Shown piece after piece: positions 742-28,021 of a stretch of DNA of 64,000 nt. Origin of the DNA: Verrucomicrobiia bacterium (GTDB lineage: Bacteria; Verrucomicrobiota; Verrucomicrobiia; Limisphaerales; DASXHY01); contig DASPIL010000029.1 of NCBI GenBank assembly GCA_035629175.1, positions 1 through 64,000 on the forward strand, given 5' to 3'. The notes beneath the pieces are model-generated. The model was not told the DNA's origin. It saw only the letters and a program-made list of their open reading frames with translations, and did not search any database. Position 1 is the stretch's first letter. Each line of letters begins with the position of its first letter. Made by a program: the position numbers and the translations under genes.

Positions 742-793
742 CGCGAGGACGAGTCAGGCACCCCGTCGATCCATCCCGCTCAAGGGGCTTGCG

Positions 794-831
794 GCGGGTG
801 AAGTATTCTCCGCACCCGCTGGAATCGTTTT
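794..831 (+). terminator. Weak hairpin between convergent genes
   Basis: GCGGGTG (794-800) pairs with CACCCGC (813-819) around a 12-nt loop. On the plus strand it is followed by a short T run at 827-830. It lies between the convergent Cys-rich gene and infC and could end the former. The stem is short and the loop large, so confidence is low. Confidence 0.3.
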
Positions 832-851
832 AGCCGCAGACACTCACCGAG

Positions 852-1478
852 TCATTCGTCCCCCTCGGGCTCTTCGTCATTTTCGGGCGGCGGCGGCATT
901 GAAGCGTCGCGGGCCGGCGGCTTCGCACGTTTGTTCCGGGGCAGCGGACTGAGCAATACCGTCAGGTCTCTTTCGCCCATCATTTTAGGAGGCGTATCGG
1001 GGAGCGCGTAGGCGGCAAGGTCCTTCACAAACCGGTTTACCAGCGCAAATCCCAGGTCCTTGTGGGCGTTCTGCCGCCCGCGAAAGCGCATCTTGATTCG
1101 CACCTTCATGTCGTCGCAGAGAAATTCAATCGCATGCTGGAGCTTGACGCCAAGGTCGTGCGAATCAATGGCAGGGGAAATCTGAAGCTCCTTCATCCGG
1201 CCGCCAGTCTGTTTGGACTCCTTGTTCCGTTTCGATTCCTCGTACTGAAACTTTCCATATTCCACAATCCGGCAGACGGGCGGATTGGCCGTTGGCGCGA
1301 TCTCGATGAGGTCGAGCCCCTTGGAGCGCGCGAGCTGCAGCGCGTCGTTGAGAGTCATGACTCCGAGCTGCTGTTTCTGGTCGTCGATGACGCGGACTTC
1401 TCGCGCGCGGATTTTTCCGTTACGCCTGTGCAGGGGTTCGCGCGAATGAAATGATCGTGGAGAGAACGGACGGCTCAA
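852..1478 (-). CDS. infC: Translation initiation factor IF-3
   Basis: IF-3 binds the 30S ribosomal subunit, keeps it apart from 50S and checks the start codon. The 208-residue product shows the IF-3 N-domain (REVRVIDDQKQQLGV, then APTANPPVCRIVEYGKF, about residues 27-75) and C-domain (KELQISPAIDSHDL to the MMGERDL region, about 95-170). An acidic, Pro-rich tail makes it longer than the usual 170-180 residues. The start is TTG at 1478 with AAAGGA 5 nt upstream; infC is known in other bacteria for non-ATG starts used in autoregulation. The usual followers rpmI and rplT are absent: the next gene downstream is convergent. Confidence 0.95.
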   Translation of the reverse strand: MSRPFSPRSFHSREPLHRRNGKIRAREVRVIDDQKQQLGVMTLNDALQLARSKGLDLIEIAPTANPPVCRIVEYGKFQYEESKRNKESKQTGGRMKELQISPAIDSHDLGVKLQHAIEFLCDDMKVRIKMRFRGRQNAHKDLGFALVNRFVKDLAAYALPDTPPKMMGERDLTVLLSPLPRNKRAKPPARDASMPPPPENDEEPEGDE

Positions 1479-1534
1479 TGAATTCCTTTGGTTGGGGTTG
1501 GGCTGTACAGAGAAGCGCCGAAGCGGCGGAATCT

Positions 1535-1558
1535 GCCTTCATTGTTTGCAACGAAGGC
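1535..1558 (-). promoter_or_regulatory. Leader hairpin upstream of infC
   Basis: GCCTTC (1535-1540) pairs with GAAGGC (1553-1558). After one mismatch an inner TTG/CAA pairing closes a 4-nt loop. The hairpin lies about 57 nt upstream of the infC TTG start and downstream of the RRM-gene terminator, so it would be in the infC 5' leader. A regulatory role is inferred from position only. Confidence 0.3.
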
Positions 1559-1573
1559 GGGCCGTGCTCCGGC

Positions 1574-1606
1574 AGAAAAGAATGGGGCCCGGCAGAGCCG
1601 GGCCCC
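1574..1606 (-). terminator. Rho-independent terminator of the RRM gene
   Basis: A perfect 10-bp stem, GGGGCCCGGC (1584-1593) with GCCGGGCCCC (1597-1606), encloses a 3-nt loop. Read on the minus strand it is followed by ATTCTTTTC. It lies just downstream of the RRM protein gene and upstream of infC, so the two minus-strand genes are probably separate transcription units. Confidence 0.85.
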
Positions 1607-1622
1607 GATGCAGAGTGTCTTA

Positions 1623-1943
1623 TTAATAACGGGAACGTGAGCCGGAACCGCCGCCACCGCCGAACGAGCGGCGTCCGCCGCCGTTGGAGGATTCTTCACG
1701 GGGACGTGCTTCATTGACCGTTAACGCACGGCCGTCGAGCGACTTGCCATTCATTTCAGCAATCGCGGCTTCCGCTTCCTGAGGTGAGCTCATAGTGACG
1801 AATGCAAAACCGCGAGGGCGGCCGCTGACGCGGTCGGTCATCAGGTTGGCTTCGGTGACCGTTCCAAACGCGGCAAAAGCGTCCTGCAGGTCGTTTTCAG
1901 TGGTGTTGAAGGAAAGATTTCCAACAAACAATTTGGTACTCAT
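1623..1943 (-). CDS. Single-RRM glycine-rich RNA-binding protein
   Basis: A 106-residue protein with one RNA-recognition motif. RNP2 is LFVGNL (residues 5-10) and RNP1 is RGFAFVTM (44-51), with the aromatic residues that stack on RNA present in both. From about residue 85 the tail is Gly/Ser/Arg-rich, as in plant and cyanobacterial cold-induced glycine-rich RRM proteins. It is likely a cytoplasmic RNA chaperone or binder; targets cannot be inferred. The ATG start has AGGA about 14 nt upstream. It is transcribed alone, ending at the hairpin at 1584-1606. Confidence 0.93.
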   Translation of the reverse strand: MSTKLFVGNLSFNTTENDLQDAFAAFGTVTEANLMTDRVSGRPRGFAFVTMSSPQEAEAAIAEMNGKSLDGRALTVNEARPREESSNGGGRRSFGGGGGSGSRSRY

Positions 1944-2377
1944 GTGATGTTTCGCTGTCCTGATAGTTGTTTTCCAGACTGTACCCCGTTTGCCGGGTTT
2001 AAAATCATCACTGAACCAAGTTCACCTGAGGATTCCCCATATCTCGAAGCTTCAAGCATTCGAACAGATGCGGCACTATCCACCCTTTCACCGGAATAGC
2101 AACTGTTATTTGATGTATCGAAAACGCAGCGCAGGTCGCCGCACCTGCCTGGTGCATCGCCGCGCTTCCAAGCCGGCTGGCCGTGAATCGCGCCGAGGGA
2201 AAGGAAACCTCTCCAACTTCCCCAGCCGCTGCTACGAAGGACGGGCCATATAGCAGACTCGGAGGTCTGGGCTGCGATACGGGTCTGCGCCGCGGGCAAA
2301 GGCTGGGCAGCCCTCGGCGGAAAAACTAGGGCATTGCCTACTCGAAAGACGCCTATAGGCACCTACGATTCGGAGGT
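1944..2377. other. Intergenic region with an RPT1 copy
   Basis: This 434-bp gap holds the 5' region of the RRM gene on the minus strand, an RPT1 copy at about 2155-2285, and the leader of the GT2 gene. A 140-codon minus-strand frame covers most of it, but part of its product is the repeat translated (AQTSESAIWPVLRSS) and it has no family signature. I see no gene here. Confidence 0.7.
2155..2285. repeat. RPT1 copy a (modular palindromic repeat)
   Basis: The segment aligns by eye, module by module, with the second half of the copy at 44216-44398. In order it has a CTTCCAAG-centred palindrome flanked by GCCGG, an AAGGAAACCT module, a GCTGCTACGAAGG module, and a CAGACTCGGAGGTCTG palindrome followed by a degraded GATAC box. 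It is intergenic, upstream of the exopolysaccharide operon. Confidence 0.75.
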
Positions 2378-3559
2378 GTGAACATTGAGCCACAACCGCC
2401 AGCACCTCGTTCCGGTGTTTATCTTTCCATTGGCATCATCGCCTGGAACGAGGAGAAAGCCATCCGCACGCTGCTCAATTCCGTCTTTCAGCAAAGCCTC
2501 CTGTCGGAACTTGCCCGCCGAAATCTCTGTTGCGAAATCATCGTCGTCGCCAACGCTTGCACGGACCGCACGGTGAGCGTCGCCGACGAAATCCTGTCGC
2601 GACAAATGCGGGAGGATCTGGATGGGCGCGCTTTGATCGGCCGCGTCACGCATCTCGCCGAACGGGGCAAGATCAACGCCTGGAACCAGTTCGTGCACCA
2701 ATTATCCGAACGCGAGGCCAAGTTCCTCGTCCTCATGGATGCCGATATCGTCCTGCACAATCGCGACGCGCTCTGGAACCTCGTGCAGACATTGGAGGCC
2801 AGTCCTGAGGCGCGCGTGGCCGTGGATGTTCCGCGCAAGGATCTCGAATTCAAACGCCGCAAAACCATTCGCGATCGGATGTCGCTCGCTGTTTCGAGGC
2901 TCACGCAGTCATCGACAGCCCAGCTCTGTGCGCAGTTGTACTGCATCCGCGCTGAGACGGCCCGCAACATCTACCTGCCGCGCGACCTGAGCGCGTGCGA
3001 CGACGGTTTTATCAAGTCGCTCGTGTGCACCGATTTTCTGGCGCACGGCGTGTGGCCGATGCGCATCGAGGTCGCGCGCAACGCGTCACACACATTCGAG
3101 GCATACACATCGTTGAAGAGCGTTTTCAAGAACCAGAAACGGCAGGCGATCGGGCAGACCATCGTTCACCTGTTGATTGATGATTACATCAAGCACATGC
3201 CGGCGTGGGAGCGGGCGCGGCTGGCGGAAACGCTGCGACGCAAGGATGAGGAAAACCCGGACTGGCTGAAACGGCTGGTGCGCGAGCACCTCCGACGCAA
3301 GCGGTTCTTCTGGCGCCTTTACCCTGGGCTGGTGAGTTACCGTTTCCGCAACCTGCGCAAGCTCTCCTGGCGGCATCGGCTGTTCTGTCTTCCGGCGGTT
3401 CTTGGCGGAACGGTGCTTTCGCTCGCCGCAAGTCTTGCCGCGTACCGCTTCCTCAAGGCCGGTTTCACGGAATATTGGCCGCGCGCTGACCGTGGCGCAG
3501 GGCCGATCGATCTCGCGGGGCACGCCATGTCGCCCCTGTCACGCGCCAAAACGCGTTGA
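2378..3559 (+). CDS. Family 2 glycosyltransferase
   Basis: A 393-residue GT-A-fold glycosyltransferase that probably adds a sugar to a growing lipid-linked or surface polysaccharide at the inner membrane. Visible signatures are the N-terminal SIGIIAWNEE strand-loop (nucleotide binding), EIIVVANACTDRT, and the DxD motif D121-A-D123 in LVLMDADI. A hydrophobic stretch near residues 340-365 may anchor the C-terminus. It heads a four-gene operon with an O-antigen-ligase-like protein, a GT4 and a deacetylase. The start is uncertain: GTG 2378 lies only 1 nt after GGAGG. An ATT at 2384 would have ideal spacing but is a rare start codon. Confidence 0.9.
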   Translation: MNIEPQPPAPRSGVYLSIGIIAWNEEKAIRTLLNSVFQQSLLSELARRNLCCEIIVVANACTDRTVSVADEILSRQMREDLDGRALIGRVTHLAERGKINAWNQFVHQLSEREAKFLVLMDADIVLHNRDALWNLVQTLEASPEARVAVDVPRKDLEFKRRKTIRDRMSLAVSRLTQSSTAQLCAQLYCIRAETARNIYLPRDLSACDDGFIKSLVCTDFLAHGVWPMRIEVARNASHTFEAYTSLKSVFKNQKRQAIGQTIVHLLIDDYIKHMPAWERARLAETLRRKDEENPDWLKRLVREHLRRKRFFWRLYPGLVSYRFRNLRKLSWRHRLFCLPAVLGGTVLSLAASLAAYRFLKAGFTEYWPRADRGAGPIDLAGHAMSPLSRAKTR

Positions 3560-3580
3560 GCCTGGACTTCTGACGTTCTC

Positions 3581-5074
3581 ATGGAAACGAAGCAACTGAT
3601 CGCAGCCGCATACCTCGTCATCGCCGCCATGGGCGGAATCACGGTGACCTGCCTTTCCAAGCGCGCGCGCGACGGGTTCTTCTTTCTGCTCGTGACAATG
3701 GCCGCGCTCACGGAGCGCTGGGATGTAAATTTTGTGAGCCGCGAATGGTATCGGGGCACCACGATGGGGTTCGAATTCTCGCTTGTCGACGTCATCGCGC
3801 TGAGCCTGCTCGTCAGCGCCATTCTGGTTCCTCGCGCGGGCGAGAAACGGTTCTATTGGCCGCCTGCGCTCGGATGGATGCTGTTATTCTTCTTCTTCGC
3901 GGTGCTCTGCGTTGCGGTCGCGACGCCAAAGTTGTTCGGCTATTTCGCTCTCGTAAAGATGCTGCGCGGCCTCATTGTATTTTTAGCGGTTGCGCTGTAT
4001 GTGCGCGGCGAGCGCGAACTGCGAATATTCTTGTGGGCGCTTGGCGCGATTGTGTGTTTCGAGGCGCTGCAAGCCATAGAACAGCGCTATCGCTACGGCA
4101 TTCATCGCGTCTTTGGCGATCTCAACGCTCCCAACAGCCTTTCGATGTACATGTGCACGACTGCGCCCCTGTTTGTGGCGGCGTTCAACTCCAGGCTGCC
4201 ACGCTCGTTGAAAGTGATGAGCGCGGCGACCATCGCGCTGGCCGGTGTCGCAGTGCTGCTGACGATTTCGCGTACAGGCATCGTGACCATTGGGTTGATC
4301 ATGCTGGGAACGGTGGCCCTCACCATGGACCTGAAATTCACCGGCCGAAAGGTGCTCATCGCAACGGCATGCTGCCTGGCAGTTGCAGGAGCATTGGCGA
4401 AATCCTGGGAATCACTCACGTCGCGTTTCAAGGAGGCGACGCTGGAGGAGGAGTATGAGAACAAGCGCTCGCAAGGGCGCGGATACTACATTCGTCTTGC
4501 GGCGGCGATGGCCGACGAACAATGGCTCGGGGTCGGTCCGAACAACTGGTCGTTCTGGGTCAGCAACAAATACGGCCCGCGCATGGGATTCAAATTCGCG
4601 CCGTATCCCAGCGAGCACAAGGAGCCGCGCTTCGAAGTGTCGGCAGACGCGAACGTGGATGATCCACAGGCGGCGCCTGCCCACAGCCTGCTTGCGCTGA
4701 CGGCGGGCGAGATGGGATTGGGAGGGTTGGTGTTAATGCTTCTGTTGTGGATGCGATGGGGACTCATGGGGCTGAGTTTCCTCCTGCCGCGAAATCCCGA
4801 TCCGATGCGAACGATCGGAATCGGCATCTTCTTCGGACTCGTTGGAAATTTCCTTCAAGGCCTGACTGAATGGGTGTGGCATCAGACCGCCATTTTCTTC
4901 ACGTTCAACATTCTCCTCGGGGTGCTCTCCAGCCTGTATTACCTGAAGCGAAAGGCAAGGCGAGAAGCCCGCCGCGCGCAACAATTGGAGGACGAATGGG
5001 AGGACGAAGCCGAACCTGGCCAGGAATGCGTTCAGGAGGAGGAAGCTCAATATGCGCGTACTGCATCTGCTTAG
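3581..5074 (+). CDS. O-antigen ligase/Wzy-like polysaccharide polymerase
   Basis: A 497-residue polytopic membrane protein with about 10-12 hydrophobic segments. The pattern fits the O-antigen ligase/polymerase (Wzy_C) superfamily: a central SRTGIV loop, then a large periplasmic loop containing GVGPNNWSF and HSLLALTAGEMGLGG before the last membrane segments. Such proteins transfer or polymerise lipid-linked glycans in the periplasm. The C-terminus is a charged cytoplasmic tail rich in Glu and Arg. The gene follows the GT2 by 21 bp and overlaps the next glycosyltransferase by 23 bp, so it is in one operon. Ligase and polymerase cannot be told apart from sequence alone. Confidence 0.82.
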   Translation: METKQLIAAAYLVIAAMGGITVTCLSKRARDGFFFLLVTMAALTERWDVNFVSREWYRGTTMGFEFSLVDVIALSLLVSAILVPRAGEKRFYWPPALGWMLLFFFFAVLCVAVATPKLFGYFALVKMLRGLIVFLAVALYVRGERELRIFLWALGAIVCFEALQAIEQRYRYGIHRVFGDLNAPNSLSMYMCTTAPLFVAAFNSRLPRSLKVMSAATIALAGVAVLLTISRTGIVTIGLIMLGTVALTMDLKFTGRKVLIATACCLAVAGALAKSWESLTSRFKEATLEEEYENKRSQGRGYYIRLAAAMADEQWLGVGPNNWSFWVSNKYGPRMGFKFAPYPSEHKEPRFEVSADANVDDPQAAPAHSLLALTAGEMGLGGLVLMLLLWMRWGLMGLSFLLPRNPDPMRTIGIGIFFGLVGNFLQGLTEWVWHQTAIFFTFNILLGVLSSLYYLKRKARREARRAQQLEDEWEDEAEPGQECVQEEEAQYARTASA

Positions 5075-11360: not shown

Positions 11361-11585
11361 TCCCTCCTTAGCTGTTCCCTTCTCCCCTCGCCTGCGACGC
11401 AGGAGCGGGAGAGGGGCTGGGGAGAGGGTGCACTGATCCAGTCCCACGCAGCTCGAGTCTGTTGAGCCGCACGCCTCCTCTCCCCAACCCTCTCCTCCAC
11501 TCCGAGTGGAAGAGAGGGAGCATTGCCTTTCCAACAACCTCGCACGACCAAAAAACCTTCTCCCCCCGCCTGCGACGCACTGAGC
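11361..11585. repeat. RPT2 cluster (three partial copies)
   Basis: Three units of a second dispersed repeat. The first, at about 11380-11430, contains CTCCCCTCGCCTGCGACGCA and a run of GGAGAGGGGCTGGGGAGAGG. The second, at about 11477-11520, contains CTCTCCCCAACCCTCTCC and the palindrome CCACTCCGAGTGG. The third is a partial copy at about 11558-11585. The same modules recur at 12578-12630 and 20916-21036. They look like small palindromic extragenic elements. Confidence 0.8.
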
Positions 11586-12208: not shown

Positions 12209-12652
12209 ATGAGCTACGATGTCAGGATGAGTTCCAGCCAGCTCTGGTTGTTTCCGCATCCGCGCCCCCTGGTCGAGCGGTTTGGCAAAGATTTTTTTTG
12301 CCAGATTCCCCGCTCGCCAGGCGTTTACTTTTTCTGCGGCCCGGGCGAAGGGGTGTTGTATGTGGGCAAGGCCAGAAACCTTCGCAAGCGCCTGGGCACG
12401 TACCGTGTCGCCAATCCCGAACGCCTGCCCCGCCGCATCATTCGCCTGCTGCATCGCGTGACGCGCATCGAATGGGACGAATGCCCCTCGGAATTCGCCG
12501 CCAGTTGCCGCGAGGAATTGTTGATCGCAGTGCTTCAGCCGCGGTTCAACAAGGCTGGAGTGGTCTGGCCAAGCAAATCTCCCTCCTCTCCCCAGCCCTC
12601 TCCTCCGCTGGGAGCGGAAGAGAGGGGGAAATGGCGGGATACCGCCCTGTGA
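12209..12652 (+). CDS. GIY-YIG nuclease-domain protein with repeat-derived C-terminus
   Basis: A 147-residue protein with the UvrC-type GIY-YIG endonuclease domain: GVY (38-40), YVG (51-53), the Arg of RKRLGTY (61) and the catalytic Glu in the REELLI helix (102). Such domains nick DNA. The domain ends at LQPRFNKAG. From about residue 123 the product is the translation of an RPT2 repeat (SSPQPSPPLGAEERGKW), so the native C-terminus seems to have been replaced. It lies 60 bp upstream of imuA on the same strand and may be co-transcribed with the mutasome. A second in-frame ATG at 12227 could be the real start. Confidence 0.85.
   Translation: MSYDVRMSSSQLWLFPHPRPLVERFGKDFFCQIPRSPGVYFFCGPGEGVLYVGKARNLRKRLGTYRVANPERLPRRIIRLLHRVTRIEWDECPSEFAASCREELLIAVLQPRFNKAGVVWPSKSPSSPQPSPPLGAEERGKWRDTAL
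12578..12630 (+). repeat. RPT2 copy inside the GIY-YIG gene
   Basis: CTCCCCAGCCCTCTCCTCCG followed by a GAGCGGAAGAGAGGG arm matches the modules at 11477-11520 and 20916-20945. The copy is read in frame as the last 20 or so codons of the GIY-YIG gene, and the frame stops shortly after it. Confidence 0.8.
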
Positions 12653-12711
12653 ATAACTCCGGGGTGAAACCCATTGCCTGAGCCCTTTCCCCGATTACAT
12701 TGATCATCCGC

Positions 12712-13398
12712 ATGTCCACTGCCCGTGTCATCCAGTTGCGCCAGCTTCTCAGAGAGAAGATTCCTCAAGCGCGCCTCGGCCTGGATGAACTCACCGCCCG
12801 CCCCCTGAATTCCTGGGCGACTGGCATTGCCCAATTGGATGATTCCCTGCATGGCGGCCTTCCCCGCGGCGCGCTCACGGAAATCATCGCTCCCCAGCGC
12901 AGTTCCGGCAGCGCCCTGTTGCGCAATGCCCTCGTCGCTCGCGCCGCTGCCGAGCGGCAGATCGTGGCGTATATCGACGGCCACGATTCGCTCGACGTCA
13001 CTGCGCTCGAACCTGCAGTTGTGGAACGTCTGCTGTGGGTGCGATGCCGCACGGCGGAGGAGGCATTGAAAGCGGGCGACCTGATCCTGCGCGATCGCAA
13101 TGTCCCGCTCGTGATCCTCGATTTGGTTTCGAACCCCACCATGGAACTGCGGCGCATCGGGGCCACCACGTGGTTTCGATTTCAGCGGATTCTCGAAATG
13201 GGCTCGACGGTTTGCGTGGTGCTGACTCCAGAGCCGCGGGTGAGCCCGGCCCAGGCGCGCATTACCATTCGCCCCCAACGACGCAATCTCGCCGCTCTTG
13301 ATCGCGAATCCGTGGAACTCATTTCTGAATTGAAATTGGAAGTTTCCGACGCGCGCCGGCTTCAGGAAACGAACGAGCAACTGCAAAGCCTCGCGTGA
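12712..13398 (+). CDS. imuA: ImuA, RecA-like mutasome accessory protein
   Basis: A 228-residue member of the ImuA (SulA/RecA-like) group. In the ImuA-ImuB-ImuC mutasome it supports damage-induced translesion synthesis, probably by modulating RecA and docking ImuB. LNSWATGIAQLDDSLHGGLP followed by RGALTEI matches the N-terminal RecA-like core, where the P-loop is degenerate. The start is taken as ATG 12712, because the TTG 12 nt upstream adds nothing conserved. It is separated from imuB by 3 nt. No obvious LexA-type palindrome was found in the 60 bp upstream. Confidence 0.88.
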   Translation: MSTARVIQLRQLLREKIPQARLGLDELTARPLNSWATGIAQLDDSLHGGLPRGALTEIIAPQRSSGSALLRNALVARAAAERQIVAYIDGHDSLDVTALEPAVVERLLWVRCRTAEEALKAGDLILRDRNVPLVILDLVSNPTMELRRIGATTWFRFQRILEMGSTVCVVLTPEPRVSPAQARITIRPQRRNLAALDRESVELISELKLEVSDARRLQETNEQLQSLA

Positions 13399-13401
13399 AC
13401 C

Positions 13402-14871
13402 TTGGACACTTTCGCGGCCATTTTCGTCCCTGACTTCGCCCTGCAAGCCGTATTGCGGCAGGAAGCGGAGTCGTGTTCAAAGTCCATCGCGCTCGTCGAT
13501 CCAAGCCTGCCCAAGCCAAACATCATCCAGCTCACCAGCCCCGCGCGCGCGCAGGGTGTGATCGAAGGATTAACCGCCAGCCAGGCAATGGCGCGCAGCG
13601 CTGAACTGCGGATCCTGTCGCGTTCGCTGGCGCAGGAACAGGCGGCGATGGATATCCTGCTTCAAACGGCCTATGCCTTTTCGCCCAGCATCGAAAACAG
13701 CGCTCCTGGCGTCTGCACTCTGGAATTGAAGGGGCTTGGATTAGACGGCGAAAGCGCACTTCAGGATTGGGCTGCGCAGATTGTGGCCGCGCTCGAAACG
13801 CTGAGTTTGCGCGTTCGCATTGGCGTGGCGTCGACGCCATCGCTCGCGTTGCTTGCCGCCAAGGCCGCGCGCCCGACGTTGATTGTTCGCGATGTGGATG
13901 CGTTTGTATCCGCGCTGCCTGTCGACGTGCTGGAACCTTCGCCGTCCATTCTCGATATTTTGGAGCGATGGGGTGTTCAGACCATTGGCGAATTGCTCAA
14001 CCTCGGCCGAACTGAACTCGCGGATCGTCTGGGTCCTGAAATCGTGTCATTGCTGCGCCGCCTCTCGCCGCACGCCAGCCGCCCCCTCAAGCTCGTCGCG
14101 CCTAGGCAGACGTTTGCGGAACAGGTTGAATTTGAAGTGGAGATTGAAACCGCCGAGCCGCTGCTGTTTGTGCTGCGGCGTTTTGTTGAACAACTGGCGC
14201 GGCGCCTCGACGTGATTCATCTCGTCGTCGCGCAGTTGCATCTGCAACTGAAACTCGGATCAGGCGCTGTTTACGAACATCACTTTCGCATTCCCGCGCC
14301 AACCGCTGACGTCAACACGCTCTTTCGCACACTGCAAACGCACCTGGAATCGGTTCGCACCGAAACGGCAATCGTCGGTTTGACACTGGAAGCCACACCT
14401 TGCCTGCCGCAGACGCATCAGTTTGGTCTGTTTGAAACGACGCTCAGGGACCCCAATCAATTCGCCGAAACGCTGGCGTGTCTCACCGCGTTGTGCGGAT
14501 CGGATCGCGTCGGAACTCCGGTCGTGGCAAGCACGCATCGGCCCGACGTGTTCTCGCTGCGATCTCCGCAATTCGACGCGCAGGCTTCCGGCGCCGCCCA
14601 CGTTGACGCAGCGATTGGACTGGCTTTGCGCCGTTTTCGTCCGGCAATTCCCGCGACGGTGGAATTTCGCGGGGAACGCCCGGCGCTGCTCCGCAGTTCG
14701 TCGGTCAATGGGGCCGTGGTGGAAGTGCGCGGGCCTTACCGCAGTTCGGGCGACTGGTGGGATCGGCAGGTTTGGACGCGGGAGGAATGGGATGTGCAAA
14801 CTGCGGATGGAACGCTGTGCCGGATTTTCAGGACGGGAACCGAATGCTTTGTGGAGGGCGTCTATGACTGA
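13402..14871 (+). CDS. imuB: ImuB, non-catalytic Y-family polymerase-like protein
   Basis: A 489-residue Y-family polymerase homologue that in characterised mutasomes is inactive and acts as a hub linking ImuA, DnaE2 and the sliding clamp. The catalytic DxD and DE acidic residues expected of an active DinB are not preserved in the FAAIFVPDFALQ and SIENSAPG regions. A consensus beta-clamp-binding motif, QFGLF (Q340-F344), lies after the little-finger region, as expected for ImuB. The start is TTG 13402, 3 nt after imuA. The stop overlaps dnaE2 by 8 bp. Confidence 0.92.
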   Translation: MDTFAAIFVPDFALQAVLRQEAESCSKSIALVDPSLPKPNIIQLTSPARAQGVIEGLTASQAMARSAELRILSRSLAQEQAAMDILLQTAYAFSPSIENSAPGVCTLELKGLGLDGESALQDWAAQIVAALETLSLRVRIGVASTPSLALLAAKAARPTLIVRDVDAFVSALPVDVLEPSPSILDILERWGVQTIGELLNLGRTELADRLGPEIVSLLRRLSPHASRPLKLVAPRQTFAEQVEFEVEIETAEPLLFVLRRFVEQLARRLDVIHLVVAQLHLQLKLGSGAVYEHHFRIPAPTADVNTLFRTLQTHLESVRTETAIVGLTLEATPCLPQTHQFGLFETTLRDPNQFAETLACLTALCGSDRVGTPVVASTHRPDVFSLRSPQFDAQASGAAHVDAAIGLALRRFRPAIPATVEFRGERPALLRSSSVNGAVVEVRGPYRSSGDWWDRQVWTREEWDVQTADGTLCRIFRTGTECFVEGVYD

Positions 14872-17800
14872 GGCGCAACGTCTGAAGGGCAGGGGGCACG
14901 GCGGGTATGTGGAACTCCACGCACGCAGCGCGTTCAGTTTTTTGCGCGGCGCTTCCACTCCCGAACAGCTCGCCGAGAAAGCCGCTGCGCTGGGATTGCC
15001 CGCGGTGGCGTTATGCGATCGCAATGGCGTCTATGGCGCGCCGCGGCTCTTTGGCCGTGCGCAGGAAACCGGCGTAAAGGCCATTGTAGGCGCCGAGATC
15101 GTGATGGAAGACCAGACCGTTCTGCCTGTATTGGTGGAATCACGCGTCGGTTACCAGAACCTCTGCCAGCTGCTCACGCGTGCGCATCTGCGCAGCGAAA
15201 AAGGCAAAGCCACTGTGGGCTGGGATGAATTGCCGGAATTTGCAAAAGGGTTGGTGGCGTTGACGGGCGATGAGGAAGGGCCGCTGCTGAAGGATTTGGC
15301 GAAGACTGCTTCCCTGGAAAGCGGCAACGGCACGCGGCTTCTGCAACGCGGCGGAACATCGCCCATCGCATTTGGAAGTTCACGCCGCCCCGCCGCAAAG
15401 GGTGGACAAGTGCGCGCGCTGGAAAGGCTCCTGCACATTTTCGGACGCGATCATCTGTTCGTCGAGGTTCAACGCCATCACCTGCGCGGCGAGGATCGAA
15501 CGCATCGCGATCTTGTCGAATTGGCGGAGCAATCTCACCTGCCGCTGCTGGCGACGAACGGCGTGTTGTATGCATCTGAAATGGAACGTCCGATCCTCGA
15601 TGTCTTCACCTGCATCCGAAATCACACGCACCTGGATGCTGCTGGGAAGCTCCTGGCGCAGAACAGCGAGCGTTATCTGAAGACGTCCGCGCAGATGAGC
15701 GAGTTGTTCTTCGATTGCCCGGAAGCGATCGAAAATACGGTGCGGCTTGCCCAGCGTCTGGAGTTTTCGATGGAAAACCTGGGATACGAATTTCCCGAGT
15801 ATCCCGTGCCGCCCGGCCATTCCATGGATACGTTCCTGCGTGAACAGGCTTACGCGGGCGCCAGGCAGCGCTATGGGTACGTGCCCGAGAAAGTCCGGCT
15901 GCAGCTTGAAAAGGAATTGCCGCTGATCGCAAAGCTCAAGGTCTCAGGATATTTCCTCATCGTCTGGGACATCGTCCAGTTCTGCCGCCAGCAGAACATC
16001 ATGGCGCAGGGCCGCGGCAGCGCTGCCAACAGCACGGTATGCTTTTGCCTGGGCATCACTGCTGTCGATCCGTTGCGCTTCAACACGCTGTTTGAACGCT
16101 TCCTCACCGAAGGACGCAAGAGTTCCTGGCCTGACATCGACATCGACCTGCCCAGCGGCGGTCGCCGTGAGCGCGTGATCCAGGAAATCTACCAGCGTTA
16201 CGGACGCCACGGCGCTGCAATGACTGCGAACGTCATCACGTTCCGCGGACGCAGCGCATCGCGGGAAGTGGGCAAGGCGTTGAACCTTGCGGGCGATGTG
16301 TTGAATCGCTTCTCGAACCTGTACGCGAATGGAGATTTCCCGCACACGCTCGACCTCGCGGCTCAAATGGAAAAGGCCGGCCTGCCGAAGGAACATCCAC
16401 GCGCGCCTGCCTTTGCCGTGTTGTGCAGCGCGATTCGCGGATTGCCGCGGCATCTCGGGCAACATTCGGGTGGCATGATCATTTGCCAGGGAAAACTGGA
16501 TTCCGTGATGCCGCTCGAGAATGCATCGATGCCTGGCCGCGTCGTGGCGCAATGGGACAAGGACGATTGCGAAGACTTGGGCATCATCAAGGTGGACTTC
16601 CTCGGCCTCGGCATGATGTCGGTGCTGCAGGACACAGTGGAGTTGACGGGCCGATTGGGACGTCCAGTCGACCTGGCGCACCTGCCGCAGGATGACGCGA
16701 AAACGTTTGAAATGATGCAGGCTGCGGACACGGTTGGCGTATTCCAGATTGAGAGCCGCGCGCAGATGGCGACGCTGCCGCGCATGAAGCCGAAATGTTT
16801 TTATGATGTCGTGATCGAAGTCGCGATCATCCGTCCCGGCCCGATCCAGGGGCATCTGATGCATCCCTACCTGGAGCGCCGCGCGGGCAAGCAGCCTGTG
16901 CGCTATTATCACGACAGCGTGAAGCCGGTCCTTGAGCGCACGCTGGGCGTGCCATTGTTCCAGGAACAGATGCTGGAGATCGCGATGGTAATGGCGAATT
17001 TTTCGGGCGCGGAAGCGGAGGAATTGCGGCGCGCACTGAGTTTTCATCGTTCGCAGGAACGCATGCAGAAGGTGGAGAAGAAACTGCGCGCTGCCCTGGA
17101 ACGCAATGGCCATGGGCCTGAAGTCGTGGAGCAGATCATCCAGGCGATTGGCTCGTTCGCGTTGTACGGCTTTCCTGAATCACACGCGATCAGCTTCGCG
17201 CACCTGGCTTATGCCTCGGCTTATTTGAAGGCCCATCGCGCACCCGAGTTTTACGCGAGCCTCTTGAACAACCAGCCGATGGGTTTTTATTCTTCGGCGT
17301 CGCTGGTGAAGGATGGCCAGCGCCATGGCGTGAAGTTTCTGCCCGTGTGCGTCAGGGAGTCGGACTGGGATTGCGCGATTGAATCGGCGCACGTAGCGCA
17401 GGCTTCCAGGCCCGCAGGAGCGTTGAGTTCTGGAGCTGCACGAGAATCCCTTCATGTGCGCCTCGGCCTGCGGGTGATTCGCGGGCTCAGCCGCACGAGC
17501 GCGGAACAGCTTCTTGCCGAGCAACGCCGGGAGCCGTTCACTTCGATTGACGATTGCAAGCGGCGCGTGCGGTTGAACAGGGATGAATGGCGCGTGCTCG
17601 CGGAAGTGGGCGCGTTCAACTGCTTTGCCGCGCATCGGCGCGACGCGCTGTGGCTGGTGGAGAAGGAATGGCGGCAGGGGGATTTATTCGAATACAGCGA
17701 ACTGGCCCGCGCAGGAAAAGCTTCTGAATCCACTCCCGCCGATTCGGAATTGCGCGAGGCGCCTTTGGATGCGCGCACCGCGTCGCCATTGCCCGCGATG

Positions 17801-18211
17801 AATTATGCGGAACGCATTCGCGCTGATTACCGCGCGATGCAGCTTACGACTGGGAAGCACCCGATGGCTTTGTTGCGATCCCAATTGAAGGACGTCTGGC
17901 GCGCCGCGGATTTGCCAAAGGCGGAAAGCGGCAGTTGGATTCGAATTGCAGGCAATGTGATCTGCCGCCAGCGTCCCGGCACCGCGAAGGGATTTGTCTT
18001 TATCAGCCTGGAAGACGAGACCGGCATCAGCAACGCCATCGTGACGCCGCCGATGTTTGAGGCGAACAGGTTGTTGATCACGGAGGAATCATTCCTTGTG
18101 ATCGAAGGCACGCTGCAGAACGTGGACAACGTCATTCACGTGAAGGCTGCCCGGATTGAGCGCTTGAAGGCAGATCCGCGAGTGGCCACCGCCTCCTACG
18201 ATTTCCACTGA
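14864..18211 (+). CDS. dnaE2: DnaE2/ImuC error-prone DNA polymerase III alpha subunit
   Basis: A 1115-residue C-family polymerase for error-prone translesion synthesis with ImuA and ImuB. The PHP domain is N-terminal (YVELHARSAFSFLRGAS). The palm has the catalytic acidic triad PD424-I-D426-I-D428. A helix-hairpin-helix region and a C-terminal OB fold (RIAGNVICRQRPGTAKGF) follow. ATG 14864 has GGAGGG 5 nt upstream and lies within the end of imuB. Residues about 844-864 (VAQASRPAGALSS onward) are an in-frame RPT1 insertion. A second segment around residues 165-185 (GGTSPIAFGSSRRPAAKGG) may be another degraded insertion. Confidence 0.95.
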   Translation: MTEAQRLKGRGHGGYVELHARSAFSFLRGASTPEQLAEKAAALGLPAVALCDRNGVYGAPRLFGRAQETGVKAIVGAEIVMEDQTVLPVLVESRVGYQNLCQLLTRAHLRSEKGKATVGWDELPEFAKGLVALTGDEEGPLLKDLAKTASLESGNGTRLLQRGGTSPIAFGSSRRPAAKGGQVRALERLLHIFGRDHLFVEVQRHHLRGEDRTHRDLVELAEQSHLPLLATNGVLYASEMERPILDVFTCIRNHTHLDAAGKLLAQNSERYLKTSAQMSELFFDCPEAIENTVRLAQRLEFSMENLGYEFPEYPVPPGHSMDTFLREQAYAGARQRYGYVPEKVRLQLEKELPLIAKLKVSGYFLIVWDIVQFCRQQNIMAQGRGSAANSTVCFCLGITAVDPLRFNTLFERFLTEGRKSSWPDIDIDLPSGGRRERVIQEIYQRYGRHGAAMTANVITFRGRSASREVGKALNLAGDVLNRFSNLYANGDFPHTLDLAAQMEKAGLPKEHPRAPAFAVLCSAIRGLPRHLGQHSGGMIICQGKLDSVMPLENASMPGRVVAQWDKDDCEDLGIIKVDFLGLGMMSVLQDTVELTGRLGRPVDLAHLPQDDAKTFEMMQAADTVGVFQIESRAQMATLPRMKPKCFYDVVIEVAIIRPGPIQGHLMHPYLERRAGKQPVRYYHDSVKPVLERTLGVPLFQEQMLEIAMVMANFSGAEAEELRRALSFHRSQERMQKVEKKLRAALERNGHGPEVVEQIIQAIGSFALYGFPESHAISFAHLAYASAYLKAHRAPEFYASLLNNQPMGFYSSASLVKDGQRHGVKFLPVCVRESDWDCAIESAHVAQASRPAGALSSGAARESLHVRLGLRVIRGLSRTSAEQLLAEQRREPFTSIDDCKRRVRLNRDEWRVLAEVGAFNCFAAHRRDALWLVEKEWRQGDLFEYSELARAGKASESTPADSELREAPLDARTASPLPAMNYAERIRADYRAMQLTTGKHPMALLRSQLKDVWRAADLPKAESGSWIRIAGNVICRQRPGTAKGFVFISLEDETGISNAIVTPPMFEANRLLITEESFLVIEGTLQNVDNVIHVKAARIERLKADPRVATASYDFH
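17393..17450 (+). repeat. RPT1 module inserted in dnaE2
   Basis: GTAGCGCAGGCTTCCAGGCC followed by CGCAGG matches the opening module of the RPT1 copies at 21081 and 44216, including the GTAGCGCAGG boundary and a nearly perfect palindrome. It is read as VAQASRPAG, the same reading frame as in three hydrolase genes. It adds about 20 residues to DnaE2 without breaking the frame. Confidence 0.7.
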
Positions 18212-20915: not shown

Positions 20916-21036
20916 GTCCCCCTCTCTTCCACTCGGAGTGGAGGCAGGGCGGGCAGAGGAGGAGCGTTGCAACTTGGAAACTGCACCCCCCTCTCCCCAA
21001 CCCGCTCCCGCTCCTGCGTCGCAGGCGAGGGGAGAA
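20916..21036. repeat. RPT2 copy upstream of hisD
   Basis: CCCCTCTCTTCCACTCGGAG and GCTCCTGCGTCGCAGGCGAG match both RPT2 modules seen at 11380-11520, here in opposite relative order. The two modules are joined by about 40 bp that include a GCAACTTGGAAACTGC near-palindrome similar in design to RPT1 units. Confidence 0.8.
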
Positions 21037-21040
21037 AACA

Positions 21041-21170
21041 GCAGGTTCGGAGATCTGCGCTACGTTGCGCCGACTGAACGTAGCGCAGACTTCCAAGTCT
21101 GCTGTATCGCAGGCTTCCCAACCTGCTCGGCGTTACTACGCCCACCCGACTGGAAGTCCGCGACACGGCA
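21041..21170 (+). repeat. RPT1 copy b
   Basis: It contains GCAGGTTCGGAGATCTGC, then GTAGCGCAG leading into the perfect palindrome GCAGACTTCCAAGTCTGC at 21085-21102, TGTATCGCAGGCTTCCCAAC, and a weaker CGACTGGAAGTCCG unit. It reads VAQTSKSAVSQASQPAR in one frame, but here lies upstream of the chosen start of the membrane-protein gene. Confidence 0.85.
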
Positions 21171-21349
21171 GATCGTATTTGGATGGAACTTCACGCATCG
21201 AAGCGCGATTTCCACGCGCTCGGAAAGCGTTTCCAACGGTCGCACTTCAAAAACTTCAGCAAAATGGAGGTTTTCAACGGTTGGCCCGCGCGCTGCTAAA
21301 TGGAACTCGTCCGTGCGGTGCGCTGAAACGAGAAGACGTTGAGGTGAAT

Positions 21350-23066: not shown

Positions 23067-25982
23067 TCAAGGAGCGTTGACCTGAAATTCGTATCGGCCT
23101 GAACCGATTTCGCACACAACCCGGGAACCCTCCTGTCGCGCCGCAGCGTTCAACGGCCGTCCTCCTTCTGTCACAGAATTAATCGCGGTCGCAGGAATGA
23201 ATACGCGAGCGGTTGTATTCGGAGGAATCTCCACCTTCAACGCGAATCGTCCGTCCTTGCGGGTCCAATGACTTTCTATAGGTCCGCGGATCGAATTGTA
23301 CCTCGCCCGCGCCCAGGTCATGCCGCCAACAGGTTGCGGACGGATGATGATCTTCTTGAAGCCGGGTCCGCTCGGATCGCAATCGATTCCGGCAAGGTCC
23401 TTGTAAAACCATTCCGTGATGTGGCCGAGCATGAAGTGGTTGTGCGACGTCGTCAGGTTGGCATCCCAGGCTTCAGTCAGGCTCGTTTCGCCCTTCTTCA
23501 GCATGTAACCGTAGCCGGGTTTGTCGTCCTGGTTGATCATGCGATATACCACGTCCGAACGGTCTGCCTTTGCCAATGCCTGGAGCAGGAAACGATACCC
23601 GATGTCGCCCGCTGTCATGAGGTGGTCGCGGGCCTCGAGGTCGCCAATCAAAGCGTTCAACACTGCGTCGTGCGATGGCGGTTCAGCGATTCCAAAAACA
23701 AGCGGCAGGGCGTTCGCGCATTGGGAACCCGTGGCGTAAGTGGAATTTTCCGTATTGAAGAAGGTTGAATTGTAACTGGCGCGGATCTCTCCAGCGCGTT
23801 TGCGAAAATGCGCGGCGTCTTCGGCGTTGCCCAGCAGCGTCGCGATCTTCGCCAGCAATTCTGCGTCGTGGAACAGGAACGCTGTCGCTGTCACGGGCGG
23901 GGGAGTGTGCTGCGGAGCGCCGGATTTTTTCGGTCCCAGGTCAAACCAATCGCCCAGTCCCTGCGCGAGGATGTTGTTGGTGGCAAGGCTCTCCAGGTAC
24001 GCGAAGTAACGCTTCATGTCAGCGTAATGCGTGCGCAGAAGATGAACGTCGCCGCAAAACTGGTATTGCTGCCAGGGCACGATGATGAACGCGCTGCCCC
24101 ATTCGGCGGCGCTGCGGAAGGCTCCCTTGAATTCCGTGAACTCAGGCGCAATGTTCGGCACGAGCCCGTTTTCCAGTTGCGCGTCCGCCATGTCATTCAT
24201 CCCTTTCGTGAACATGCGCGCCATGTCGAATTCGTAACGAATGGCGGGACCGTTCAGGTGATACTGCTCGAGCCAGCCGAGCTTCTCGCGATGCGGACAG
24301 TCGGTCAGGACGGAAACCATGTTCGCTCTCTGCGCCCATCTCACAAGATCCCGAATGCGGTTGAGCAGGGGATTGGAGCATTCGAATTCTCCAGTGGCCG
24401 CCGCATCTGCATGAATGACGACTCCTTCGAGGGACTCGATTTGCGGAAGGGAAGACGCTGCGGTTGGCGCGGTGAGCGTGGCCTCGAGATATCTGCAACC
24501 CACATAATAGAACTGCGGGAACCATTCCTCCGGATCGTCCGTGGACTTTGTGTATTGCCACCACGACAACCCTCGGTTGGTGCTGCCCATCGTGGATCGC
24601 AGGATCGAGCCATCGGGATTTACGACTTCGGCGGGGATGAGCCGCACGGTGCTGCCCGCAGGACCGCTGACGCGAATGCGTGGCATGTAGGACGTGTTCT
24701 GGCCGAGATCGTAAACGATTTTGCTCGGCGCCAGCTTGGTTTCTCCAATCGGCCTGCGGACCTCGATTTCACGGATGGGTTCGACGGAGGCGCTGTGCCC
24801 CCGCAATTTTCCGCCGGGACGCACAACGTGAACTGAAGGTGTCCAGCCGCGATCGTCGAAACCAGGCTTGTCCCAGCCAGCAGGAATTAGTCGCGCGTCA
24901 TAGTCTTCGCCTCCAAAAATGCTCGAATATGTAATGGGTCCCGGATGCGTGCGCCAGGTTGGATCCGTTGCAAAGGTTTCGTGTGTGCCGTCCGCGTATT
25001 CGATTTCCAATTGCGCGATGGCGCGCAGCGGGCCGAACGAGCCCGTGAACTTCGCGAAACGGTTGCGGCGTTGCACGTGATACATGCCGTTCCCAAGCGT
25101 GATGCCAAGCGCGTTGGTTCCGGGTCGGAGCAGCGGGGTGATGTCGCGCGTGTCGTAAAGGATGGTGTCGTTGTAATCGGTCCAACCCGGCGAGAGCAAC
25201 TCGTCGCCAACCTTCCGGCCGTTCAGGTTCAATTCGTAATGACCAAGTCCGGAGACGTGAATAATCGCGCGTTTGATTCCTGGCTTGGCGCGGATTTCCT
25301 TGCGCAGCAGGAGCGCTTCGGAAGTGGCAGGCGCACAGATCCATCGTGCCTTCCAGCCAAGGGGCGGATCATCCTGTCCCGCGGTTTGCCCGGCGGGGCC
25401 AAAGAGACCCATGGTCCAGCGCTGCGCGGGGGCCCACGCGGAAGGGGTGCCGTTGGCAGCCCAAACCCGCACGGTCCAGAATACGTCCTGTGACGGTTTC
25501 AAATCCCTGCCGCGATACTCAATATGCAGGGATTGGTCGGACTGCACCTTGCCGCTGTTCCACAAATCGGCCTCTGCCTCGTTCAACAGGTTCGTGGTGG
25601 TCGCAGCCAGGATTTGGTAGCCAGTCTGAAGCTGCGCTCGTTCCACACTCTCAAGTCTCCAGGAAAGGCGCGGTTGGCGAGTGTCGATGCCAAGTGGGTT
25701 TGTGGAGTATTCGCACTGCAGGTGGACTGGAATCAGCGCGGCAGTGCAGGGGAATGTGAGTAGGAGGCAAAACAGCGCCAGTAGCGCCCGTTTCGGAAAC
25801 TGTCCTGCCCTCCGCAGTGGGCTGCCACGGAGGACGGGCTGTATCGCCGGCTTCCCAGGGGGAAGGGCGATGTCGGCGGGCGCAGGTTTGGAAACCTGCG
25901 ATACAGCAGACTTGGAAGTCTGCGCCACGGGAGCGGCAGATTCCGATGCCTGCGCGGCAAACGGTTGTTCCTCGATAATCAT
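23067..25982 (-). CDS. GH78 alpha-L-rhamnosidase with RPT1-encoded N-terminal extension
   Basis: A 971-residue secreted inverting alpha-L-rhamnosidase that would remove terminal L-rhamnose from polysaccharide or glycoside. Family features are the N-terminal beta domains (VHLQCEYSTNPLGID), the (alpha/alpha)6-barrel motif TDCPHREKLGWLEQYHLNGP with an acidic active site, and DAQLENGLVPNIAPEF. The ATG at 25982 overlaps the stop of the upstream beta-helix gene (ATGA). The first 60 or so residues are translated RPT1 (VAQTSKSAVSQVSKPAP), and only then comes a hydrophobic signal (KRALLALFCLLLTFPCTAA). No ATG, GTG or TTG was found just before that signal. It is the last gene of the GH29/beta-helix/GH78 operon. 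Confidence 0.93.
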   Translation of the reverse strand: MIIEEQPFAAQASESAAPVAQTSKSAVSQVSKPAPADIALPPGKPAIQPVLRGSPLRRAGQFPKRALLALFCLLLTFPCTAALIPVHLQCEYSTNPLGIDTRQPRLSWRLESVERAQLQTGYQILAATTTNLLNEAEADLWNSGKVQSDQSLHIEYRGRDLKPSQDVFWTVRVWAANGTPSAWAPAQRWTMGLFGPAGQTAGQDDPPLGWKARWICAPATSEALLLRKEIRAKPGIKRAIIHVSGLGHYELNLNGRKVGDELLSPGWTDYNDTILYDTRDITPLLRPGTNALGITLGNGMYHVQRRNRFAKFTGSFGPLRAIAQLEIEYADGTHETFATDPTWRTHPGPITYSSIFGGEDYDARLIPAGWDKPGFDDRGWTPSVHVVRPGGKLRGHSASVEPIREIEVRRPIGETKLAPSKIVYDLGQNTSYMPRIRVSGPAGSTVRLIPAEVVNPDGSILRSTMGSTNRGLSWWQYTKSTDDPEEWFPQFYYVGCRYLEATLTAPTAASSLPQIESLEGVVIHADAAATGEFECSNPLLNRIRDLVRWAQRANMVSVLTDCPHREKLGWLEQYHLNGPAIRYEFDMARMFTKGMNDMADAQLENGLVPNIAPEFTEFKGAFRSAAEWGSAFIIVPWQQYQFCGDVHLLRTHYADMKRYFAYLESLATNNILAQGLGDWFDLGPKKSGAPQHTPPPVTATAFLFHDAELLAKIATLLGNAEDAAHFRKRAGEIRASYNSTFFNTENSTYATGSQCANALPLVFGIAEPPSHDAVLNALIGDLEARDHLMTAGDIGYRFLLQALAKADRSDVVYRMINQDDKPGYGYMLKKGETSLTEAWDANLTTSHNHFMLGHITEWFYKDLAGIDCDPSGPGFKKIIIRPQPVGGMTWARARYNSIRGPIESHWTRKDGRFALKVEIPPNTTARVFIPATAINSVTEGGRPLNAAARQEGSRVVCEIGSGRYEFQVNAP
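25799..25930 (-). repeat. RPT1 copy c, in frame in the GH78 gene
   Basis: It contains palindromes GCAGACTTGGAAGTCTGC (25906-25923) and GCAGGTTTGGAAACCTGC (25882-25899), separated by GATACA, then a GCCGGCTTCCC unit and a CCTCCGCAGTGGGCTGCCAC module. On the minus strand it reads VAQTSKSAVSQVSKPAPAD within the GH78 open frame, between the coupled start and the signal peptide. Confidence 0.9.
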
Positions 25983-28021
25983 TCTTTCAGCAATTCCCGG
26001 AACTGCGGTTGCAGGCCTGCGTTGCGTTTCACGTTTTCCGACACCATCGGCCCATTGTTGTCCCAGACGTTGCCCGGCCCGTTCGCGTTTTTCAGGAAGC
26101 GTTCCTCGGGACACCAATTGTCACGGACCGTGATGTGCGATGAACCTTCGTCTAGATACAGATAGAACCAATGGGAAGGGTCAGAGACGTAGGGGCTCAT
26201 GGTGATGCTGTGAACGTGATTGCTTGCGATCAACGTTCCAGGTTGCGGCGACAACGTGTAAATGCCCGCGGTGTCACACATGCGCGTCGCGACCTTGTGA
26301 ATGTGATTTGCGACAATCCGGTTGTCGCGCATGACGTTCGGAGCCTTGTTCCAGCCCCATCCCATGCTGATGCCCGTGTAGGACGTGTTGCTGATGTCGT
26401 TGTGTTCGACGGAAATCTCACGGCCGAAACCAACCGCAATTCCGACGCAACCCCAGTCTTCGTTTGCGGTGTCAGTCAGGACGTTGTTGGCAACGCGGTG
26501 GCGTGTCGCTATTTCCCGTTCGTCGGTTGGATTAAAGGGGCGATGCGTTTCGAAGCCTGGATCGGCGAACTCCCCCAGTTGAATGCCATTGCCGCCAATG
26601 TCGCGGAACACGTTGCCTTCGATGATCCCGTCGTGCGTTCCGTCATGCACATCAAGCCCGGACATCGCGAGATGTTCGAATCGGCAGCGTTCCAGGTGAA
26701 AGTGGCTGGCGTTTCTAACAGAGACCGCGCCAGGCGGCCGTCCGAGCCAGCCCTGGTTGTCGAGACCAGCCGAATGATCGCGCGTTCCCTTGGGCGAAAG
26801 TTTGTAGGCGTCGAGAAGATACATTCCGGCCTGCAGCGGGACGTGACCCTGCAGCGACGGGCGCATCCAGGTGGTGTGTGCGAAGCGCATCCCCCGGAAA
26901 TGGATGTGCGACGCGGGATGATCGCGAGTTCCCTCGGCTTGGACCAGGGTTTCAAGCACGGGCGCAATGATCTCTGCTGTCTCAAGGTTTTCGCCCGAAC
27001 GTGGCCAATAGCAGATCTGTCCTCCCGGATATTCCTGGAACCATTCGCCGGGTTCGTCGAGGAACTCGATCGCGTTCGCAAGGAAGAACGGCGCGCCGTT
27101 CGTGCCCATGACGGGTTGCGGCCACGGATGCTCGCACTGCAATGCGGATTCAGGTTGATGAAATCGAAGCCTGGCTGCATTGCCGGGATGCTCGATTTGC
27201 GATACACGGCAAATCGCAATTTCCCACTGCTGATGAAAAATAATTTCTAGGGGTCCCAGCGGATCCTGAATGCCAAGCAACGACGCGGCGGGGATTTGGG
27301 CGAAGCAGTTCGTGCGATCCCAGACAATCATGCGATGCAATTCGTTGCCGTTCGGATTGCGCGCGCGGACGGCCTTGCGGTCGTTGATCCACAATTGCCG
27401 AAACTCGACGATCCGTCCGCCAGTTCGCGGTGCGGGTGCAACCCACACATGTTCCCGTGCTGAAGCGGGGACTTGTTGCAGGCCTGTGCCTTTTCGCCAG
27501 CCGCGAACTGCAATGCCACCGCTCAACGTTGGCGCTGCGCCTGGCGCTGCTTCGATGACAGTCGGACTTTGCGCGGTTCCAGAATCTTCAGAACGAAAGA
27601 GCAGGGGAGCGGTGAGGCGATACGTGCCGCTTTCAACAAAAATGCGAATGCCGCTGTTGATCGAAGGATGGTTCAGGCGGCGCAAATCGCGGGCCTTGCG
27701 CTGCGCGATGTGCAATGAAGCCAAGGGCTGGTCACGTGTGCCGATATTTGTGTCGGACCCGTTTGGCGAAACCCAGAGTTCAGCGCGAGCCGGTTCCTGT
27801 GCGTATGCAGAAAACGCACAGCAGAGGGCGCACAGCACGATGTGGAGCGCGACTCTGCGCAGCGCAGACATCCTAGTCTCGTGGACAGGTTTCCTTGCCT
27901 GCTTCTGCGTTCCACGCTCGGCCGGTTTGGAATCCGGCGATACAGCCCGTCCTCGGTAGCAGCCTGCTGCGGAGGGCGGGACAGGTTCGGGAACCTGCGC
28001 TACGATGTGAAATACGTTCAC
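25979..28021 (-). CDS. Secreted right-handed beta-helix protein
   Basis: A parallel beta-helix protein of the pectate-lyase/alginate-lyase-like superfamily, probably a carbohydrate-active enzyme. LWVSPNGSDTNIGTRDQPLA is the usual N-terminal cap; later repeats include NNVLTDTANEDWGCVG and HNDISNTSYTGISMGWG. There are two candidate starts. GTG 28021 overlaps the stop of the GH29 gene (GTGA) but adds 50 RPT1-encoded residues. ATG 27871 lies at the edge of the repeat and gives a clean signal peptide (MSALRRVALHIVLCALCCAF), 630 residues in all. It is the middle gene of the minus-strand hydrolase operon. Specificity is not assignable. Confidence 0.85.
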   Translation of the reverse strand: MNVFHIVAQVPEPVPPSAAGCYRGRAVSPDSKPAERGTQKQARKPVHETRMSALRRVALHIVLCALCCAFSAYAQEPARAELWVSPNGSDTNIGTRDQPLASLHIAQRKARDLRRLNHPSINSGIRIFVESGTYRLTAPLLFRSEDSGTAQSPTVIEAAPGAAPTLSGGIAVRGWRKGTGLQQVPASAREHVWVAPAPRTGGRIVEFRQLWINDRKAVRARNPNGNELHRMIVWDRTNCFAQIPAASLLGIQDPLGPLEIIFHQQWEIAICRVSQIEHPGNAARLRFHQPESALQCEHPWPQPVMGTNGAPFFLANAIEFLDEPGEWFQEYPGGQICYWPRSGENLETAEIIAPVLETLVQAEGTRDHPASHIHFRGMRFAHTTWMRPSLQGHVPLQAGMYLLDAYKLSPKGTRDHSAGLDNQGWLGRPPGAVSVRNASHFHLERCRFEHLAMSGLDVHDGTHDGIIEGNVFRDIGGNGIQLGEFADPGFETHRPFNPTDEREIATRHRVANNVLTDTANEDWGCVGIAVGFGREISVEHNDISNTSYTGISMGWGWNKAPNVMRDNRIVANHIHKVATRMCDTAGIYTLSPQPGTLIASNHVHSITMSPYVSDPSHWFYLYLDEGSSHITVRDNWCPEERFLKNANGPGNVWDNNGPMVSENVKRNAGLQPQFRELLKE
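27861..28014 (-). repeat. RPT1 copy d, at the start of the beta-helix gene
   Basis: A near full-length copy. Read on the minus strand it gives GTAGCGCAGGTTCCCGAACC, the CCTCCGCAGCAGGCTGCTAC module, TGTATCGCC, a GCCGGATTCCAAACCGGC palindrome (27921-27938), GCAGGCAAGGAAACCTGTCC, and a final GACTAGGATGTC unit. That last unit contains the ATG at 27871. It reads VAQVPEPVPPSAAGCYRGR, parallel to the copy at 44216. Confidence 0.9.

Follow-up and report, generated by a model that had tools for sequence, protein, structure and literature searches.

A probable GTAG-tagged REP fragment inserted in frame in the error-prone polymerase gene dnaE2 of a verrucomicrobial genome

The error-prone polymerase gene dnaE2 examined here carries an in-frame insert of 63 nt that is very probably a remnant, partial and decayed, of a dispersed palindromic repeat with a GTAG tag (REP), acquired after the lineage split from the nearest relative compared (G043; same order, other family, 78% protein identity). 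The window, that is, the whole stretch of 64,000 nucleotides that was analysed, is part of contig C29 of a genome of 5.4 Mb, whose closest named relatives by DnaE2 are verrucomicrobial MAGs.

The insert, its gene and its structural setting

The insert, VAQASRPAGALSSGAARESLH, lies at positions 17393-17455 on the forward strand (residues 844-864) and was delimited by comparing the protein and its codons with L002-L010 and with about 80 other homologues. An alignment with nine relatives shows IES-AHVAQASRPAGALSSGAARESLH-VRLG in the DnaE2 of the window and IES-DAS-IRLG or similar in most of the verrucomicrobial ones; VRLG (865-868) begins the conserved block that follows. Compared with the turn of the latter, which has 3 residues, the net gain amounts to 20 residues (60 nt). 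The nine relatives, with identities of 43-78%, have about 20 residues fewer at exactly the insert point (11-20, depending on the relative). The turn has 2-15 residues in most homologues, a minority having long and unrelated inserts, and the residues of the window's insert are absent from all 87 other homologues that cover the site. The insertion into DnaE2 is real. A frame-preserving, repeat-derived insertion between conserved blocks was what the original prediction had proposed, and this is borne out by the relatives, which cleanly lack about 20 residues here, and by the search for the same residues in distant DnaE2 proteins lacking the repeat, which did not refute the insertion among the homologues covering the site. 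The predicted peptide, VAQASRPAGALSS, is found in frame at 17393-17431, in a gene that an NCBIfam model identifies as an error-prone polymerase; of the extent first given, 17393-17450, the start stands and the end has to be moved slightly outwards, to 17455.

The gene itself (dnaE2, or imuC; 14864-18211, forward strand) is stop-free and encodes an error-prone DNA polymerase of 1115 aa. It matches the NCBIfam error-prone polymerase model NF004225 over its whole length (1174.8 bits, cut-off 939) and contains the Pfam domains PHP, DNA_pol3_alpha, finger and HHH_6, the last of these at residues 822-927. Its start is overlapped by an upstream homologue of ImuB-like Y-family polymerases (13402-14871, forward strand) with weak, consistent matches to DNA polymerase IV, and this gene is preceded by one for an ImuA-like (RecA-like) protein (12700-13398, forward strand; NCBIfam ImuA, 48 bits, below the cut-off of 150). 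The three form a mutagenesis cassette, in which the dnaE2 call is strong and the other two are weak and below cut-off. Membership in DnaE2/ImuC is indicated by the family score over the cut-off and by the imuA-imuB-like neighbours at 12700-14871, weak as these are. DnaE2/ImuC is an inducible mutagenesis polymerase, and a second, replicative-type polymerase match (30% identity) lies elsewhere in the genome (G000:C90); to speak of an essential-length polymerase, as the original prediction did, was therefore an overstatement. The invariant catalytic stretches PDIDIDL and KVDFLGL are retained. Moreover, purifying selection acts on dnaE2, with a dN/dS of 0.13 in the comparison with L002, an approximate value given that dS (1.26) is near saturation. 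A weak tandem repeat with a period of 27 was also observed within the gene, at 15441-15503.

An AlphaFold model based on 79 sequences (mean pLDDT 87.6, pTM 0.87), which replaced a poor 9-sequence run (pLDDT 61), predicts the insert to be a disordered loop between two beta strands, one before the insert (residues 838-841; 17375-17386, forward strand) and one closing the hairpin (residues 863-866; 17450-17461, forward strand). The pLDDT falls below 50 at residues 850-858, and this segment and the two other low-confidence segments, 156-178 and 938-970, fall within or next to the three loops that are expanded in this DnaE2. Mapping the position on a DnaE structure, as had been proposed, places the corresponding turn at about residues 883-888 of Taq polymerase III alpha. 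In the reading frame of dnaE2 the tag GTAG gives GTA G.. (V A ...), so that the TAG stop frame is avoided, and the consensus repeat is stop-free throughout in the same frame. A net gain divisible by three, the reading of the tag as GTA G.. and a turn that accommodates floppy residues would together have let the enzyme go on working and the insert be retained. One could ask whether the insert has instead been co-opted, for example to alter the contact of DnaE2 with DNA or with ImuB beside the helix-hairpin-helix region. The site does adjoin a DNA-binding motif (HHH_6), and long inserts are found repeatedly at the same turn, in several phyla; however, these share little or no sequence between lineages, the insert of the window is predicted to be disordered and most relatives manage without one, and we regard co-option as very improbable. 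The insert appears to be neutral for the polymerase.

Resemblance of the insert to a REP head

The insert begins exactly with CGTAGCGCAGGCTTCC (16 nt, counting the preceding C), which is the head of the dispersed repeat, and the GTAG tag (17393-17396) starts on its first base. This REP head extends over 17393-17415 on the forward strand; it is exact over GTAGCGCAGGCTTCC, and the right arm of its palindrome is degenerate. Exactness ends after 15-16 nt (GCAGGCTTCCAGGCCCGC against the GCAGGYTTCCRRRCCTGC types). The remainder of the insert (17416-17455, forward strand) has no convincing similarity to the repeat or to the rest of the genome: the profile alignment tails off by 17423, and nothing matches the final 32-40 nt or so. 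GTAG-tagged REPs are characterised by a palindromic stem of about 6-9 bp with a short loop; the hairpin of the dnaE2 copy, with its degenerate stem, is not significant (z -1.34), as against a z of -4.65 for an intact family copy. Of the original prediction that the segment matches the repeat base for base over boundary and palindrome, the boundary part holds (15-16 nt exact) and the palindrome part fails, its right arm having decayed. Nor is the whole "opening module" of the repeat (RPT1) present; what the gene contains instead is a decayed head followed by about 40 unexplained nt. We also considered a full inverted REP pair within the insert and rejected it, as 17424-17455 has no match to the repeat profile.

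This profile comprised 84 positions and was derived from intact copies, with the dnaE2 copy left out (consensus GTAGCGCAGGTTTCCGAGCCTGCTGTATCGCCC...GGAAACCTGCGCT). Its best hit in dnaE2, and the one strong hit there, places profile position 1 on 17393, with 9.2 bits and an E-value of 0.0023 for the gene. Over the 331 kb searched the same hit has an E-value of 0.22; the case rests on the position and on the exact head. In 30 other dnaE2 genes the best score of the profile was 2.2 bits. A different origin, ordinary growth of the loop through slippage or small duplications with a REP-like 16-mer at its start by chance, has to be weighed at this point. The turn is variable in general, and a long insert at the same turn in another homologue (L188) has no other copy in its own genome, so that expansions not derived from repeats do occur here; additionally, the bulk of the window's insert past the head matches nothing. 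Against chance stands the exact 15-mer of a 72-copy family on the very first base of the insert, where chance would yield about 2.5e-5 occurrences across the gene with both strands counted (4/4^15 at each position if base frequencies are equal). Furthermore, the profile score of 9.2 bits was reached anywhere in the gene by one of 1000 codon-shuffled versions of dnaE2, even before the coincidence with the insertion boundary is counted. We give ordinary loop growth a slim chance.

If the insert is a decayed REP, as we favour, a copy would have landed in the codons of the short turn that joins the two beta strands immediately ahead of the helix-hairpin-helix region, and would have been kept as protein sequence with the polymerase still working, the palindrome decaying afterwards. 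All 63 nt probably arrived with the REP.

The repeat family, its putative transposases and related systems

Allowing at most one mismatch, the pattern GTAGCGCAGRYTTCC has 72 matches in the genome, compared with a single match for the reversed control pattern. Other genomes of the same order contain about 300 (G037), 263 (G052) and 64 (G018) copies, and in G037 these frequently form inverted pairs at a distance of about 105-140 bp. The GTAG tag, the palindrome and the high copy number fit GTAG-tagged REPs, and the intact family members look like inverted pairs. The top-scoring copy of the 84-bp repeat in the window lies at 39425-39524 (reverse strand; E 9.3e-18). Further copies lie on the reverse strand at 2179-2275 and 47073-47156 and on the forward strand at 27922-28003 and 49175-49349 (more than one copy in the latter), with composite copies at 25781-25928 and at 44216-44396 (the second with several modules in both orientations) and a cluster of repeat heads at 21012-21185. 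Many hits of the REP pattern fall within long stop-to-stop frames; these were not counted as insertions, being mostly near the frame ends and probably outside genes. Another dispersed repeat (CCTCCTCTCCCCAACCCTCTCCTCC...) is found in the window at 11474-11525 and 12582-12633, in copies that are 85% alike, with a related piece at 20987. Elsewhere in the genome, the gene for HsdR (type I restriction; 289-3633, minus strand, of locus L108, G000:C98:47800-52800) encodes about 37 extra residues, LQRSAAVPAASSSGVSPREGTPGETPGKLAGEDACAT, before helicase motif I. This segment contains a reversed REP head and is likely a second in-frame insertion in the same genome.

The copying of such REPs is attributed to RAYT transposases, which are IS200/IS605-like and would act via single-stranded DNA. 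The genome contains a RAYT over the cut-off of NF047646 (81.4 bits; L032, G000:C67:245449) with the GTAG REP GTAGCGGCAGGCATCCTGCCTGCCG on both sides, and one just under this cut-off (L034, G000:C69:43124) flanked by GGAGCGCCGACTTCCAGTCGGC and CTAGCGCCGACTTCCAGTCGGC. The flanking palindromes of both are tagged GTAG/GGAG and are of types other than that in dnaE2; a RAYT flanked by exactly the dnaE2-type REP was not found among five Y1 transposase loci of the genome. In G052, GTAGGGCAGGCTTCCAGCCTGCC, which is very close to the head of the dnaE2 repeat, flanks a RAYT-like gene (L216). Tagged hairpins have a density of 0.095 per kb in the DnaE2 loci taken as a control and a clearly higher one around RAYTs. 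We infer that a RAYT moved the repeat copy now in dnaE2.

These observations can be compared with described systems. The family resembles REPIN/BIME elements with their RAYTs (Nunvar et al., 2010, PMC2817692; PMC3116915) in that its intact members are inverted pairs of heads and in that RAYT genes with GTAG/GGAG REP flanks occur in the same genome and order. The dnaE2 insert, unlike a REPIN with its two inverted REPs and unlike the paired family members elsewhere, is a single, unpaired head, and the exact cognate RAYT was not found in this genome. Like Rickettsia palindromic elements, the dnaE2 insert derives from a palindromic repeat lying in frame in a protein-coding gene; those elements carry a CGTC tag according to PMC3733652, whereas the tag in dnaE2 is GTAG. 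The closest likeness is to the GTAG REPs of Di Nocera et al. (2013, PMC3733652). In that paper, GTAG REPs are reported from Verrucomicrobia, with Opitutus terrae rich in them, and REPs are described inside genes, many of these for DNA synthesis and repair, DnaE2 being mentioned by name. The tag with palindrome, the many dispersed copies, the verrucomicrobial hosts and the in-frame copies including DnaE2 are common to both; by contrast, the stem sequence of the window's family differs as far as it can be read in that source, and the dnaE2 copy is a lone decayed head. Our literature search found no closer precedent. An in-frame REP in DnaE2 belongs to a kind that the 2013 paper describes, and the window provides a new example.

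Recurrent inserts in DnaE2 loops

Among 82 full-length DnaE2 sequences, inserts at least 15 residues over the median cluster in four loops, namely at 82/83 (11 sequences), 843-864 (10), 945-970 (9) and 138-182 (7). Unrelated inserts recur in these loops across Verrucomicrobiota, Acidobacteriota and Hydrogenedentota, and several of them are dispersed repeats in their own genomes. At the turn 843-864 (site B), five inserts besides that of the window were searched in their own genomes. The insert of L186 from Hydrogenedentota (L186:5459-5650) has 82 matches there, itself included, and the acidobacterial inserts of L155, L138 and L146 have eight, eleven and nine, some of those of L146 being weak or self-palindromic; the fifth is the single-copy insert of L188 discussed above. 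Between lineages, site-B inserts have at most short stretches in common, and because such stretches are shared the three acidobacterial inserts may not be fully independent.

The DnaE2 of the window has two further expanded loops. Site A (residues 138-182; 15275-15409, forward strand) has 43 residues against a median of 14 and contains a weak repeat-like match, CGCCGCAAAGGGTGGACAAGTG. Its collinear pieces make it a candidate second copy of the same repeat, but the match scores 1.2 bits and the loop has no repeated copies in its own genome. Site C (residues 945-970; 17696-17773, forward strand) has 24 residues against a median of 2 and is modelled with low confidence. In other genomes, in-frame site-A inserts with terminal inverted repeats were found in the spartobacterial-type records L126 (GGAGCGCAGGCTGGCAGCCTGC), L127 and L150, and in L128, whose insert is of another family; the arms of these inserts reappear within the same locus or in the loci of the other records. 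We further observed that L003 carries at site A the insert ECWSDGVLENIIPLLPNTPTLHYSTPP, encoded by near-palindromic DNA (GGAGTGTTGGAGCGATGGAGTGTTGG ... CCAATACTCCAACACTCCATTACTCC), an unrelated element in the same loop. Other DnaE2 loops of L126, L127 and L155 contain inserts reading CHPERSEAKSRDP...RDPSTALGMT and VILSETNASRSEVFVESKN that resemble translated repeats, and the C-terminal linker of L005 (window residues 945-972) has a very long repetitive insert of more than 100 residues, DGSRRGDEADGSRRREEADGRQERG....

Most likely, the recurrent use of these loops reflects their tolerance, and real targeting of DnaE2 by repeats is possible. The refilling of a few loops by unrelated repeat families in different phyla could mean that DnaE2/ImuC attracts palindromic repeats more than its permissive loops would explain by themselves, perhaps through exposure of the gene as single-stranded DNA or its expression when elements move (for instance during the SOS response); we consider this unlikely. 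According to the 2013 paper, REPs in genes of one functional category are usually at different sites, the recB genes of X. campestris and X. oryzae being the only ones to have a site in common, whereas DnaE2 here shows loops that are used recurrently (Di Nocera et al., 2013, PMC3733652). Our literature search found no account of unrelated repeats repeatedly occupying the same loops of DnaE2.

The insert in dnaE2 offers a clear case of a selfish palindrome that has become part of the protein of a mutagenesis polymerase, and relatives provide empty sites for comparison. More broadly, the loops of DnaE2 are a natural record of insertions, in which one and the same turn holds a GTAG-REP head here, the 82-hit repeat in Hydrogenedentota and dispersed repeats in acidobacterial genomes. 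With a survey of these loops, one can test whether REPs are really enriched in repair genes, as the 2013 paper suggested (PMC3733652), or whether such genes merely have many tolerant loops.
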